A program made the translations under genes and the position numbers. Below are positions 953-6,056 of a DNA stretch of 6,056 bases, piece by piece. This stretch comes from Caldisericota bacterium. GTDB lineage: Bacteria > Caldisericota > Caldisericia > B22-G15. Each line of letters opens with the position of its first letter. Position 1 is the first letter of the stretch. Below the pieces are notes generated by a model. It did no database searches, was not told where the DNA came from, and saw only the letters and a list, made by a program, of their open reading frames with translations. Location: contig QMOO01000077.1 in the NCBI GenBank assembly GCA_003648245.1, positions 1-6,056 on the forward strand, read 5' to 3'.

Positions 953-1327
953 ATGACTAAAGAAGAAATTTTAGAGGCAATTGAAAAGATGAGTGTAACT
1001 GACCTCGTAGAGCTGGTAAAAGCTCTCGAGGAAAAATTTGGTGTATCTGGAATGCCAATGGCAATGCCAGTAGCAGGTGGTGGCGGTGGCCAACAAGCAG
1101 CACAGGAAGAGGAAAAAACCACCTTTGATGTTGTTTTGACCAGTGTTGGTCAGGCAAAAATCCAGGTCATTAAAGTTCTCCGTGAGGTTCTTGGTGTCTC
1201 CCTCAAAGAGGCAAACGAGATCTGCAACAAAGTACCTCACCCTGTTAAGAAGGGTATAAGCCAGGACGAGGCAGAGGAAATCAAGAATAAACTTTCCGCT
1301 GTAGGTGCTACAGTGGAGATTAAATAG
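953..1327 (+). CDS. rplL: 50S ribosomal protein L7/L12
   Basis: This 124-residue acidic stalk protein has the standard three parts. An N-terminal helical dimerisation domain (about 1-33) attaches to the L10 tail. A flexible hinge (about 34-56) contains repeated Met/Ala/Pro and five Gly in a row at 42-46. A globular C-terminal domain (about 57-124) recruits and stimulates EF-Tu, EF-G, IF2 and RF3. In the factor-binding helix pair, Lys69, Val72, Ile73, Lys74 and Arg77 match E. coli K65, V68, I69, K70 and R73. The SLKEAN segment at 83-88 has Ser where Gly is usual and Asn88 where E. coli has the conserved factor-contacting Lys84. Length is normal. The TAG stop overlaps the base of the downstream hairpin. 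Identification is secure; the effect of the substitutions is unknown. Confidence 0.97.
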
Positions 1328-1357
1328 AACCCCGATTATCGGGGTTCTTTCCCTTTT
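1326..1357 (+). terminator. Hairpin attenuator/terminator between rplL and rpoB
   Basis: A perfect 10-bp stem pairs 1326-1335 with 1339-1348 around a TTA loop, with five consecutive G-C pairs in its middle. It is followed by a T-rich run broken by CCC (TTTCCCTTTT, 1348-1357). The last two bases of the rplL stop codon form the stem base. In E. coli a partial terminator at the same place cuts rpoBC transcription to a fraction of rplL. The broken T-tract and only 24 nt left before rpoB favour partial termination here too, by inference. A role in mRNA processing or 3'-end stability is also possible. Confidence 0.78.
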
Positions 1358-1362
1358 AAACT

Positions 1363-1367
1363 GGAGA
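1363..1367 (+). promoter_or_regulatory. Ribosome binding site of rpoB
   Basis: GGAGA lies about 5 nt upstream of the ATG at 1372. It is a weaker match than the AGGAGG of rplJ and rplL, consistent with lower output of the polymerase subunit. It supports the chosen start. Confidence 0.7.
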
Positions 1368-1371
1368 CAAT

Positions 1372-4300
1372 ATGGAGATAAAAGAAGTTAAAAACTTCAA
1401 TAAATTTTTATTTCAGCCTGAGATTCCCGATTTACTTGAATTCCAGAAGGAATCTTTTTTCAGATTTATAAACGAAAAAATACCAAAGCTTCTTGAGGAG
1501 ATTTCGCCGATTGAAACTCCAAAGGTGGAGCTTGAGTTTTTTGATCCAAAAGTTATTCCACCAGAGCTTTCAGTTGAGGAATGCAAAGAAAGAAAACTCA
1601 CATATTCCGGGAATCTCAAGGCAAAGGTAAGGATTATCAATAAAAAGAGTGGAGAGATAAAAGAACAGGAGGTTTTTTTAGGAGAGATTCCATACATTAC
1701 CCCTCATGGTTCTTTTATATTTAATGGAGCAGAGAGAGTGGTTGTCTCTCAACTTATAAGAGCACCAGGAGTATATTTTACCACTCCTTCATCTGCTCAT
1801 TCGGGAAGAGTCCATTTTGAAGCAAGATTAATTCCAGAAAGAGGAACGTGGTTTATCTTTGAGGTTGAAACCAGTGGCACAATCGTTGTAAGACTAAACA
1901 AGGGTTCAAGAAAACTCTACTTCCCAACTGTTCTAAGAGTCTTTAAGGAACTTACAGATGATGAAATCCTCGAGATGTTTAAGGAAAAAAGAAAGATTAA
2001 AATAGGTGTACTTGATGCAGATAGATTGCTTCCAGCCACCTTTGCTGAAAATATATTTGATCCAGAGACTGGAGAGGTTATCTATAAAGAAAAAGAAAGA
2101 ATTACCCAAAAAAAACTTGATCATATAGCTTCCCTTGGCATACACTATGTTGAAATATATAAGGAAATGGTGGATCCAATCATAATTAAGACTGTTGATA
2201 AGGATCCAAATAAAACACAGAAGGATGCAATAATTGAGATTTACAGAAAGTTAAGACCTGGTGAGAGGGTAACCTTTGAATCAGCCAAGAATCTTATAAA
2301 TCTTATGTTCTTTGATAAAAAGAGAAACTTCTTATCAGATGTTGGAAGACACAAAATAAATCAGAAGTTCGGTCTCAATCTTAAAGATAATATGGTAACT
2401 TTTGACGATCTTGTGGCAATAATAAAACATGCTGTAAAGATAAAGAATAATGAGGCAGAACTTGATAACATAGATCACCTTGGAAATAGGCATGTAAGAG
2501 GAGTGGGAGAACTCCTTGAAGTAAATATGAGATTTGGTTTCTTAAGAATGGTTAAAGTTGCCAAAGGTAGAATTAGTACATATTCAGAGGATAGATACAC
2601 AGCTCAACATCTTATAAATTCAAAGCCAATAACAGCAGCCCTTCAGAGTTTCTTCGGAACAGGACAGCTTTCCCAATTTATGGAGCAGACAAATCCTCTC
2701 TCTTCTCTTACTCACAAGAGAAGACTTTCGTCTATGGGACCAGGTGGTTTGACTAGGGAGACTGCAGGACTTGAGGTAAGAGACATTCATTCCTCCCACT
2801 ACGGTAGAATATGTCCTATAGAGACTCCTGAGGGACAGAATATTGGACTCATAAACTCCCTTACAGTATTTTCTAAAATAAATGAGTATGGATTTATAAC
2901 AACTCCTTACAGAAAGGTAAAGAAAGGAAAGATAACTAAAGAGATTGTCTATCTTGAAGCTGGTGAGGAAGAAAAATACTATATAGCCCAGGCAAACACA
3001 CCTGTTAATAAAAAAGGAGAACTTCTTAAAGATGATAAAGGTAATCTTTTAAATGATGGAATAGCCCTTGGAAGGTATCAGGGAAATATTGTTGAGATAC
3101 CTCTTGAAAAGATTGATTTCATAGAGGTATCACCACTTCAGGTATTTTCTGTTTCAGCATCTCTTATCCCATTTCTTGAACATGATGATGCAAACAGAGC
3201 TTTGATGGGATGCAATATGCAGAGACAGGCAGTTCCCCTGCTATTTCCAGAAGTTCCACTTGTAGGAACTGGAATGGAAAAGATTGTTTCAAGACACGAT
3301 CCAAGTGTGGTAATCTCTGAAATAAATGGTAAAGTGGAGGCAGTTTCTTCTGATAAGATTGTAGTTCGTAGCAGTAAAGAGAAAAAGATATATAAACTCA
3401 AAAAATTTGAAAGATCAAATCAGGACACATGTATAAACTCAAGGCCCATAGTTAGGAAAGGGGAAAAGGTAAAGAAGGGACAGATCATTGCTGATGGACA
3501 GGCAATAAAGGATGGGATTCTGTCTCTCGGAAGAAATCTCCTTGTTGCATATCTTCCATGGAGAGGATACAACTATCAGGATGCTATTCTTATAAGCGAA
3601 AGATTGGTAAAGGATGATGTATATACCTCAATTCATATAAAGGAGTATGTGACTACTGTAAGAGATACCCGCGCAGGTCCTGAGATATTAACCCGTGATA
3701 TTCCCAATGTTGACGAAGTTGACTTAAGAAATCTTGATGAAGACGGAATAATAAGAATAGGAGCGGAGGTAAAGGCTGGAGATATACTTGTTGGAAAGCT
3801 TGCACCAAAGACAGAAGTGGACACCTCTCCTGAATCAAAGATATGGAGAGCAATGTTTGGTGAGAAGGGAAGAGATGTTATAGATGTTTCCTTAAGACTT
3901 CCACCTGGTGAATTTGGAACTGTAATAATGACAAGAATCTATTCCAGGGATAAAGGTGACGAACTTCCCATTGGAATAAATAAACTTGTGAAAGTCCTTG
4001 TGGCACAGAAGAGAAAGATAATGGTGGGAGACAAGATGGCCGGAAGACACGGAAACAAAGGAGTTGTTGCAGCAATACTCCCTGAGGAGGATATGCCATT
4101 TAGAAGCGATGGAACTCCAATAGATATAGTCCTCTCTCCACTTTCTGTTCCTTCAAGAATGAATATAGGGCAGGTCCTTGAAGCCATGCTTGGACTTGTG
4201 GCATATGAAATGGGGTTCAGAGCAGAGATTCCAATTTTCTCTTCTTTGAGCGAAAAGGATATAGAGAAAATGCTCAAGAAGGCTGGCTTCAATGTGAATA

Positions 4301-4791
4301 GTAAAGAGATTCTATATGATGGATATACAGGTGAGGCTTTCCTTGCTCCTGCTCTTGTTGGATACACATACTTTATGAAGCTGAACCACCTTGTTCTTGA
4401 TAAAGTTCATGCGAGATCCACGGGAACTTATTCCCTTGTAACTCAGCAACCTCTTGGAGGGAAATCTCAGTTCGGAGGTCAGAGACTTGGTGAAATGGAA
4501 GTCTGGGCTCTTGAAGGTTATGGAGCAGCTCATCTGATTCAGGAAATGCTTACAGTAAAGTCCGACGACATAGAGGGAAGAAGAAAAGCATACGAAGCTA
4601 TAGTAAAGGGAAGAGACATAGAAGAGGTTGGAATACCCGAGTCTTTCAAGGTTCTAATACGAGAACTTAAGGGACTTGGTATTTCAGTAAAAACAATTCC
4701 CCCTATAGAGAAAAAAGAAGAGAAGAAGGAACCAAAATTCTTTCTTCCAACAAGAAGGAAAAAAACTAAGAAAAAAGAGGTGAATCAATGA
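1372..4791 (+). CDS. rpoB: DNA-directed RNA polymerase subunit beta
   Basis: This complete 1139-residue catalytic beta subunit forms one jaw of the RNA polymerase active cleft. Landmarks in order: protrusion motif NGAERVVVSQ (118-127); a short module at about 220-270 resembling one repeat of the proteobacterial lobe insertion; rifampicin region (427-460); HYGRICPIETPEGQNIG (476-492); NMQRQAVP; GYNYQDAILISERL; catalytic GDKMAGRHGNKG with Lys888 and Lys896 (E. coli K1065, K1073); PSRMNIGQ with Arg929 (E. coli R1106); and the C-terminal GGQRLGEMEVWALEGYGAA anchor that packs on beta-prime. The numbering offset to E. coli grows by 100 residues between 736 and 888, so the large insertion before the catalytic lysines is absent. 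Gln736 replaces the near-universal Glu (E. coli E813). The last 26 residues are a Lys/Glu-rich tail. A hairpin precedes the gene, and it overlaps the next gene by 4 nt. Confidence 0.98.
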   Translation: MEIKEVKNFNKFLFQPEIPDLLEFQKESFFRFINEKIPKLLEEISPIETPKVELEFFDPKVIPPELSVEECKERKLTYSGNLKAKVRIINKKSGEIKEQEVFLGEIPYITPHGSFIFNGAERVVVSQLIRAPGVYFTTPSSAHSGRVHFEARLIPERGTWFIFEVETSGTIVVRLNKGSRKLYFPTVLRVFKELTDDEILEMFKEKRKIKIGVLDADRLLPATFAENIFDPETGEVIYKEKERITQKKLDHIASLGIHYVEIYKEMVDPIIIKTVDKDPNKTQKDAIIEIYRKLRPGERVTFESAKNLINLMFFDKKRNFLSDVGRHKINQKFGLNLKDNMVTFDDLVAIIKHAVKIKNNEAELDNIDHLGNRHVRGVGELLEVNMRFGFLRMVKVAKGRISTYSEDRYTAQHLINSKPITAALQSFFGTGQLSQFMEQTNPLSSLTHKRRLSSMGPGGLTRETAGLEVRDIHSSHYGRICPIETPEGQNIGLINSLTVFSKINEYGFITTPYRKVKKGKITKEIVYLEAGEEEKYYIAQANTPVNKKGELLKDDKGNLLNDGIALGRYQGNIVEIPLEKIDFIEVSPLQVFSVSASLIPFLEHDDANRALMGCNMQRQAVPLLFPEVPLVGTGMEKIVSRHDPSVVISEINGKVEAVSSDKIVVRSSKEKKIYKLKKFERSNQDTCINSRPIVRKGEKVKKGQIIADGQAIKDGILSLGRNLLVAYLPWRGYNYQDAILISERLVKDDVYTSIHIKEYVTTVRDTRAGPEILTRDIPNVDEVDLRNLDEDGIIRIGAEVKAGDILVGKLAPKTEVDTSPESKIWRAMFGEKGRDVIDVSLRLPPGEFGTVIMTRIYSRDKGDELPIGINKLVKVLVAQKRKIMVGDKMAGRHGNKGVVAAILPEEDMPFRSDGTPIDIVLSPLSVPSRMNIGQVLEAMLGLVAYEMGFRAEIPIFSSLSEKDIEKMLKKAGFNVNSKEILYDGYTGEAFLAPALVGYTYFMKLNHLVLDKVHARSTGTYSLVTQQPLGGKSQFGGQRLGEMEVWALEGYGAAHLIQEMLTVKSDDIEGRRKAYEAIVKGRDIEEVGIPESFKVLIRELKGLGISVKTIPPIEKKEEKKEPKFFLPTRRKKTKKKEVNQ
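4777..4782 (+). promoter_or_regulatory. Ribosome binding site of the EF-G-like gene, inside rpoB
   Basis: GAGGTG, lying within the last codons of rpoB, is 5 nt upstream of the ATG at 4788. With the ATGA stop/start overlap it sets this start and implies translational coupling: ribosomes ending rpoB can reinitiate on the next gene. Confidence 0.8.
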
Positions 4792-6056
4792 AAACATTAG
4801 AACCCTCTAAAATTAGAAATGTTTCTTTTGTATCTCACAGTGGAGCTGGAAAAACAAGTCTTGTTGAATCTATGCTTTTTGTTTCAAAGACGATAGATAA
4901 AAAGGGAAGCACTGATAAGGGAAATACCGTATCTGATTTTGAGCCAGAGGAGGTGAAAAGACACATAAGTATCTCTACATCACTGATTCCCATATTCTGG
5001 AAAGATTACAAGATAAATATCCTTGACACCCCTGGATTCCTTGAATTTTTTGCAGAGGTTAGGGGTGCTTTAAGGGTTTCAGAAGGTGCTGTCGTTCTTG
5101 TAGATGCCTCTTCAGGTGTTGAAGTTGGAACTGAAAGGGTCTGGGAATTTGTAAAAGAGGAAGAAATTCCTGCATGTTTTGTTGTAAGCAGAATGGATAG
5201 AGAGAATGCAAATTTTGAAAAAGCACTTTCCAGTATTAGAGATTTCTTTGGTTCAGACGTCGTCCCCCTTATCCTTCCCATTGGTCAGGGGCAGAACTTT
5301 AAAGGTTTTATAAATCTTCTCACAGGAGAGGCAAAGATATTTGAAGGTGGAAATGTAAAAGAAGTTGATGTTCCTGATTCTGAGAAGGAAAAATTTGACA
5401 TGTACAGGAATGAACTTGTGGAGAAAGTAGCAGAGAACGACGAGGAACTATTAGATAAATACCTGAATGAAGGAGACCTTTCTCCTGAGGATATAAAGAA
5501 GGGCCTTAAAGAAGGAATAAAAAATAAGGTGATATTCCCTGTCCTTGTTTCTTCCTCTGTATCTGATATGGGAACAGAAGAGATTCTTGATTTTATTATA
5601 GATGAGTTTCCTCCACCATACCTTGATGAAAAGCGCTACGGTAAAAAGCCCAATTCAGATGAAGTTGTTGTTGACAGTATTGATCCAGAAAAACCATTCT
5701 CCGGTCTTGTGTTCAAGACATTCACTGATCCCTTTGTGGGAAGGATTAACTTTGTAAAGGTTTACACTGGAAAACTGACAAGTGACATGAAGGTCCTTAA
5801 CATAGATAAAGATAAAGAAGAAAGAGTTTCAAACCTCTTCTTCATAAGGGGAAAGAATCAGGAGAAGACAGATAAGATTCTCGCAGGAGATATGGGAGTT
5901 ATTGCGAAACTCAACCATACCCTTACAGGAGATACTCTTTGCGATTCTAACTTTAAGGTGAAGTATGACTGGCTGAAGTATCCTGAGCCAGTTCTTTCAT
6001 ATGCAGTGGAACCAAAGAGAAAAGAAGACGAGGACAGGTTGAGCACGGCCATATTC
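4788..6056 (+). CDS. EF-G-like translation GTPase (EF-G-2/FusA2-like), 3' truncated by window
   Basis: The first 423 residues of an EF-G paralogue are visible; EF-G is about 690, so domain III onward is largely missing. The GTPase domain shows P-loop SHSGAGKT (16-23), a switch I segment KRHISIS (57-63), DTPGF (80-84), SRMDREN in the G4 position (134-140), and an EF-G-type G' insertion (about 165-250). Domain II starts near 303 with PFSGLVFKTFTDPFVGRI, and domain III near 398 with YPEPVLSYAVEPK. The pattern recalls Thermus thermophilus EF-G-2, including a GHAGSGKT-like P-loop and no catalytic His after DxPG. That protein binds GTP but was reported to lack ribosome-dependent GTPase activity. 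Usual EF-G residues are changed at Gly19, Ser61, Phe84, Ser134 and Arg135, so it is probably not the main translocase. It occupies the position after rpoB usually held by rpoC and overlaps rpoB by ATGA. Exact role unknown. Confidence 0.9.
   Translation, partial: MKTLEPSKIRNVSFVSHSGAGKTSLVESMLFVSKTIDKKGSTDKGNTVSDFEPEEVKRHISISTSLIPIFWKDYKINILDTPGFLEFFAEVRGALRVSEGAVVLVDASSGVEVGTERVWEFVKEEEIPACFVVSRMDRENANFEKALSSIRDFFGSDVVPLILPIGQGQNFKGFINLLTGEAKIFEGGNVKEVDVPDSEKEKFDMYRNELVEKVAENDEELLDKYLNEGDLSPEDIKKGLKEGIKNKVIFPVLVSSSVSDMGTEEILDFIIDEFPPPYLDEKRYGKKPNSDEVVVDSIDPEKPFSGLVFKTFTDPFVGRINFVKVYTGKLTSDMKVLNIDKDKEERVSNLFFIRGKNQEKTDKILAGDMGVIAKLNHTLTGDTLCDSNFKVKYDWLKYPEPVLSYAVEPKRKEDEDRLSTAIF

Follow-up and report, generated by a model that had tools for sequence, protein, structure and literature searches.

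Results

An EF-G paralogue directly follows rpoB

The window, that is, the whole stretch of 6,056 nucleotides analysed here, carries on its plus strand the 3′ end of rplA (L1; 1..300; TIGR01169, 118 bits over the part present), rplJ (L10; 419..940; NF000955 PRK00099.1-1, above cut-off), rplL (L7/L12; 953..1327; TIGR00855, above cut-off) and rpoB (1372..4791; NCBIfam PRK00405 and TIGR02013), which encodes 1139 aa and stops with TGA at 4789-4791. The gap between rplL and rpoB contains a hairpin (1326..1348, plus strand) with a perfect 10-pair stem that runs into the T-rich tail TTCCCTTTT. The rpoB-rpoC pair is among the most stable gene pairs of bacteria; directly 3′ of rpoB in the window, we found an EF-G gene and not rpoC. 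This gene, here called EFG2 (4788..6056, plus strand), was assigned to EF-G from Pfam matches and to the EFG II type from diagnostic residues and a tree, and is still open at the window end. Its ATG (4788-4790) overlaps the stop codon of rpoB in an ATGA (4788..4791, plus strand), and a Shine-Dalgarno-like GAGGTG of putative function (4777..4782, plus strand), located inside the end of rpoB, ends five bases before the EFG2 start. Both the overlapping EF-G-like frame and its own GAGGTG site had been described in the initial annotation, whose coordinates proved accurate. The protein can be read over 423 aa before the window ends at 6056, and P0001, a full-length EFG2 relative, has 692 aa. Pfam GTP_EFTU and EF-G_D2 were matched, while the start of EFG_III scored below the cut-off because the window ends there.

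Gene order in close relatives and across the phylum

The near twin of the window, G002, encodes an RpoB that is 97% identical to that of the window, with about 90% nucleotide identity over rpoB and EFG2. Its gene order is rplJ-rplL-rpoB-EFG2-rpoC, in which rpoB and EFG2 are spaced by -4 bases and EFG2 and rpoC by 14. The -4 spacing recurs in G004 and G006, and the identical six bases GAGGTG precede the EFG2 start in G002, G003, G004 and G006, the last three of which have RpoB proteins 79-82% identical to that of the window. Some of the closest EF-G and RpoB proteins, among the best 120 listed, are named Caldisericia bacterium, and one protein of that name, P0003, is 100% identical to the EFG2 of G006 (691 aa compared). 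For the part of EFG2 inside the window, comparison with G002 gave a dN of about 0.025, a dS of about 0.49 and a dN/dS of about 0.05. The EFG2 protein is thus under purifying selection, which is uninformative about the position of its gene.

Gene order was surveyed in 54 genomes of the phylum (NCBI "Caldisericia" included), reached via genome G001 from L006, the locus found by a search with the window EF-G protein. Start codons were picked by a script as those nearest to the aligned start, and fusA-labelled matches below 45% identity, which comprised EF-Tu-like pieces and one fusA piece of G027, were dropped from the order count. Fifty-one of the 54 genomes were informative, rpoB not being visible in G005 and G036 and the contig of G049 stopping 53 bases past rpoB. 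The rpoB of G020 (L161) is split over two overlapping frames, by a frameshift or an assembly error, and was counted once. The gene directly 3′ of rpoB was EFG2 in 46 of the 51 informative genomes and rpoC in five (G050-G054). The spacing between rpoB and EFG2 ranged from -26 to +22 in the 46 genomes; it was negative (-26 to -1) in 26 of them and positive (+1 to +22) in the other 20. On the same contig, rpoC came next after EFG2 in 39/46 (gap of +6 to +51), whereas the contig stopped in or shortly past EFG2 in 7/46 (G008, G026, G027, G032, G033, G035 and G048); for G027 and G048, the 3′ part of EFG2 and rpoC were recovered on a separate contig. Looking downstream in relatives thus located rpoC next after EFG2 in G002 and 38 other genomes. 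The initial annotation had suggested that the EF-G gene was either inserted between rpoB and rpoC or had replaced rpoC; the former holds, as seen from the full order in G002, and the latter is contradicted by the 39 contigs, so that rpoC has been displaced, not replaced, by EFG2. The concern that the junction might occur in a single assembly is likewise removed by its presence in 46 genomes. The rpoB-EFG2-rpoC order, carried by most sampled genomes of the phylum, appears to be old and stable.

The five genomes with the ordinary order (G050-G054) also carry EFG2, at another location. Its neighbours were inspected in two of them and include an S-layer/VWA gene (G051) and a glucanotransferase gene (G052). 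According to our reading of the search output, a second, fusA-type match was present in 45 of the 54 genomes.

RpoB also differs in size within the phylum, being about 1140-1170 aa long in the group of the window and in G050, G051 and G054, and about 1400 aa in most of the remaining phylum. In G053, both RpoB (L119:2370-9092, 2241 aa as translated) and RpoC (9199-14568, 1790 aa) are very large. Weak coiled-coil-type Pfam matches fall in a long insert of this RpoB, which carries a further insert towards the N-terminus, and no intein model was among the matches listed; in the homology search, the RpoB of G052 looked similar.

EFG2 belongs to the EFG II type

P0001 scored 933 bits against NF009381 (cut-off 583) and 713 bits against the general EF-G model TIGR00484 (cut-off 659), and also passed the EF-G models NF009891 and NF009379. 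At L006, the fusA product passed both NF009381 (802, cut-off 583) and TIGR00484 (1004), and the inserted EFG2 fell just under the TIGR00484 cut-off (648). NF009381 and TIGR00484 therefore rank these proteins and cannot separate EFG2 from fusA, because each model passes both types. The tetracycline-resistance ribosomal protection model NF012153 was not passed by P0001 (336 versus 775 bits). In a quick-search tree that gave long-branch warnings and represented EFG I only by the fusA of this phylum (70 rows: 26 inserted EFG2, four of the five ordinary EFG2, 13 of 30 fusA, 21 of 79 outside loci and six outside proteins), EFG2 was separated from the fusA of its own phylum and joined EFG II-type proteins from other phyla (support 100). 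The sampled EFG2 of the phylum fell together at 97, and the inserted EFG2 formed a weak group of their own (59).

Diagnostic residues were surveyed in 51 EFG2 and 30 fusA, in T. thermophilus EF-G numbering and by the EFG II criteria given in the excerpted text of PMC3150367; G027, G048 and G054 were represented by the longer of two EFG2 pieces. Among the readable EFG2, Thr316 was found in 48/48, Gly360 in 49/49, and residue 379 was Lys in 48 and Arg in one of 49, while none of the 28 readable fusA had the EFG II residues at 316, 360 and 379. Ser64, listed for 76% of EFG II in the same excerpt (PMC3150367), occurred in 49/49 readable EFG2, and all 30 fusA had Thr. Two further positions were more variable: residue 28 was Leu in 27 of 49 EFG2, P0001 included, and otherwise Ile (14), Trp (5), Phe (2) or Met (1), with Thr in 30/30 fusA, and residue 19 was Gly in 21 of 49, Ser in 24, among them P0001, and Ala in four. 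The corresponding excerpted figures for EFG II are 99% for Leu28 and 86% for Gly19 (PMC3150367). The switch II His87 and P-loop Asp22, each present in 30/30 fusA, were absent from all 48 and all 49 readable EFG2, respectively, residue 87 being Tyr in 37, Phe in eight, Leu in two and Ser in one. His87 was also found in none of the 79 outside loci, where Asp22 was found in four, and its lack is thus a trait of the family and not special to these bacteria. According to the same partial source, Thermus EF-G-2, an EFG II protein, hydrolyses GTP and M. smegmatis EFG II has no ribosome-dependent GTPase (PMC3150367), so that neither the activity of EFG2 nor an altered GTPase can be read from family residues. 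The place by which EFG I is recognised, directly after rpsG in the str operon, is occupied by fusA wherever it is visible, and not by EFG2. These sequence criteria place EFG2 among the EFG II-type paralogues of elongation factor G.

The G4 motif (window 5184-5207, P0001 residues 133-140) reads SRMD instead of NKxD in the window, G002, G003, G004 and G006, and is kept as N/T-K-x-D in the remaining readable EFG2. This variant could alter nucleotide binding.

The trio is kept while its flanks vary

For 42 genomes, 1 kb or more of sequence was available upstream of rpoB; queries with the L10 and L12 of the window, which diverged copies could escape, matched there in three of them (G002, G004 and G006). 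Of the 39 genomes in which 500 or more bases past rpoC were available, 30 had rpsL there, mostly together with rpsG and fusA, and the order rpoB-EFG2-rpoC-rpsL-rpsG-fusA is shared by many genomes. No rpsL was seen past rpoC in the other nine (G002, G004, G006, G040-G044 and G016, the last with 733 bases available). The rpoB-EFG2-rpoC trio thus stays intact while both outer flanks vary.

The region of the rplL/rpoB hairpin (window 1322-1372) folds at -17.5 kcal/mol, with a z of -3.67. Similar hairpins with different loops occupy the same gap in G002, G004 and G006, and that of G002 was matched by the terminator scan. Judged by its form, the element looks attenuator- or terminator-like and, as an attenuator, might perhaps hold rpoB, EFG2 and rpoC below L10/L12. 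No terminator-like site was found on the plus strand of G002 from this hairpin to a site overlapping the end of rpoC, in a genome where such sites are no commoner than in shuffles. The 1:1 translation of rpoB and the EF-G gene put forward in the initial annotation is what their spacing, by itself, would suggest, and the link between control of transcription and of translation raised there is hypothetical.

One event suffices, and rpoC follows rpoB in most control genomes

We placed the two gene orders on an RpoB tree (LG+G4 without mixture, quick search), which left out the inserted genomes G007, G008, G023, G024 and G031, labelled G049 as 'inserted' even though its contig ends so close to rpoB, and used nine outside sequences as outgroup, the named ones being Bacillota or Clostridia. 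With a warning of long branches meeting, one branch (100) set apart the 43 'inserted' rows and another (100) the five ordinary rows. One event suffices to explain the change of order on this tree, and we infer that the insertion is the derived state because rpoB-rpoC is the rule elsewhere.

As controls, we searched 121 genomes from the phyla of Sporomusa ovata, a Chloroflexi, Geothermobacter and an Aminicenantes genome, of which 117 matched and 116 had a locus, for a total of 120 loci. The gene after rpoB was rpoC in 96/116 genomes; 8/116 were unreadable, and in 12/116 the 112-576 bases available past rpoB gave no match to rpoC. No EF-G match was found near rpoB at any of the 120 loci, in a search that misses minus-strand loci. 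In the converse direction, 147 relatives of the window EF-G were found and 80 of these loci retained; among the 80, rpoB or rpoC lay within the flanks of L006 only and of none of the other 79 (flanks of at most 10 kb, often less). The controls extend to four phyla and to flanks of limited length, and the order may exist elsewhere. No relative turned up when viral contigs were scanned with alignments of Caldisericia EF-G and RpoB. At three Chloroflexi control loci (L231, L232 and L233), no rpoC match was seen in the 573-576 bases past rpoB, and another gene may sit there.

Discussion

Taken together, we consider it probable that a single relocation, in an ancestor shared by most of the phylum, brought an EFG II gene into the rpoB-rpoC junction, where its supply would track that of RNA polymerase. 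The three genes would share one transcript, and ribosomes that finish rpoB would reinitiate at EFG2 and, after it, at rpoC, although restart by overlap cannot be universal because the rpoB/EFG2 gap is positive (+1 to +22) in 20 of the 46 genomes. EFG II would thereby be produced in step with the RNA polymerase core and kept at the level of RNA polymerase, not of ribosomes, while canonical EF-G, made from a separate str-type fusA, would perform bulk translocation. Most likely, EFG2 itself would bind the ribosome as an accessory factor for translocation or recycling, and its GTP hydrolysis would be altered. A clade with a translation factor inside rpoB-rpoC offers a natural test of the function of EFG II and of a dosage tie to RNA polymerase, and the insert is a rare genomic marker that divides the sampled genomes of the phylum in two.

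The same anatomy is explained by a neutral placement, in which a convenient site in a housekeeping operon was taken by chance of a single event and few later events undid it, with no functional tie to RNA polymerase; the two readings overlap and differ on whether the position matters. We give this account a little under an even chance. It draws on the presence of EFG2 elsewhere in the five ordinary genomes, beside genes unrelated to translation in the two inspected (G051 and G052), and on the sufficiency of one event, and has against it that the tight spacing was conserved despite change in both outer flanks. If EFG II merely hitches a ride, the locus reveals what the rpoB-rpoC pair tolerates.

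A direct functional coupling, in which EFG2 would bind RNA polymerase, or act on the first ribosome that trails it, and so coordinate transcription with translation, strikes us as unlikely. The position of the gene between those of two large subunits, in a trio that stays intact, would suit such a role, but the residues and domain models of EFG2 are ordinary for EFG II, and EFG II-type genes occur away from rpoBC in other phyla (rpoB or rpoC within the available flanks of 0/79 loci, from 80 retained of 147 found). Its more specific form, a coupling module in which EFG II, synthesised alongside beta and beta′, would serve as a low-turnover translocase for the ribosome directly behind RNA polymerase, seems a long shot; if true, the pace of the ribosome would be tied to transcription in a lineage-specific manner. 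Very improbable is an EFG I copy, duplicated locally from the str-operon fusA and left behind in a merged rpo-str cluster: the rpoB-EFG2-rpoC-rpsL-rpsG-fusA order would fit it, but the split in the tree (100) between EFG2 and the phylum's fusA, its sole EFG I representative, the grouping of EFG2 with EFG II-type proteins from elsewhere, and the differing diagnostic residues refute it unless tree and residues both mislead. Replacement of rpoC, or an assembly join at the junction, was conceivable for a window that stops before rpoC could appear, but the same-contig rpoC of G002 and 38 other genomes and a junction seen in 46 leave it virtually no credence, unless the window differs from its near twin.

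Comparison with known systems

Searches of a collection of open-licence papers gave none on the rpoB-EFG2-rpoC order. The window shares the rplJ-rplL-hairpin-rpoB order of the ordinary rplJL-rpoBC operon and differs from it, by extension from its relatives, in the third gene between rpoB and rpoC. Canonical EF-G (EFG I, the fusA of the str operon) belongs to the same family as EFG2, which keeps the domain IV tip motif but lacks the switch II His87 and the P-loop Asp22 and lies outside the rpsL-rpsG-fusA order. Bacteroides fusA2/EF-G2 is likewise an extra EF-G that accompanies an essential fusA. A 2023 EMBO J paper reportedly described a Bacteroides EF-G that lacks GTPase activity. The Bacteroides EF-G2 model gave 610 bits for P0001, below its cut-off of 1000, and, in the portion of PMC6989115 at hand, this factor is induced upon carbon limitation by its own regulator, unlike EFG2, which sits beside rpoBC.

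The closest likeness is to EFG II, which is itself well known (PMC3150367 and PMC4342817, both in part). EFG2 resembles Thermus EF-G-2 (structure 1WDT; PMC3150367, excerpt) in residues 316, 360, 379 and 64, has the domain make-up of an EF-G and, in most genomes of the phylum, accompanies a str-type fusA as a second copy. The excerpted text names a conserved gene context for EFG I only (PMC3150367); EFG2 differs from the known EFG II in its location between rpoB and rpoC.
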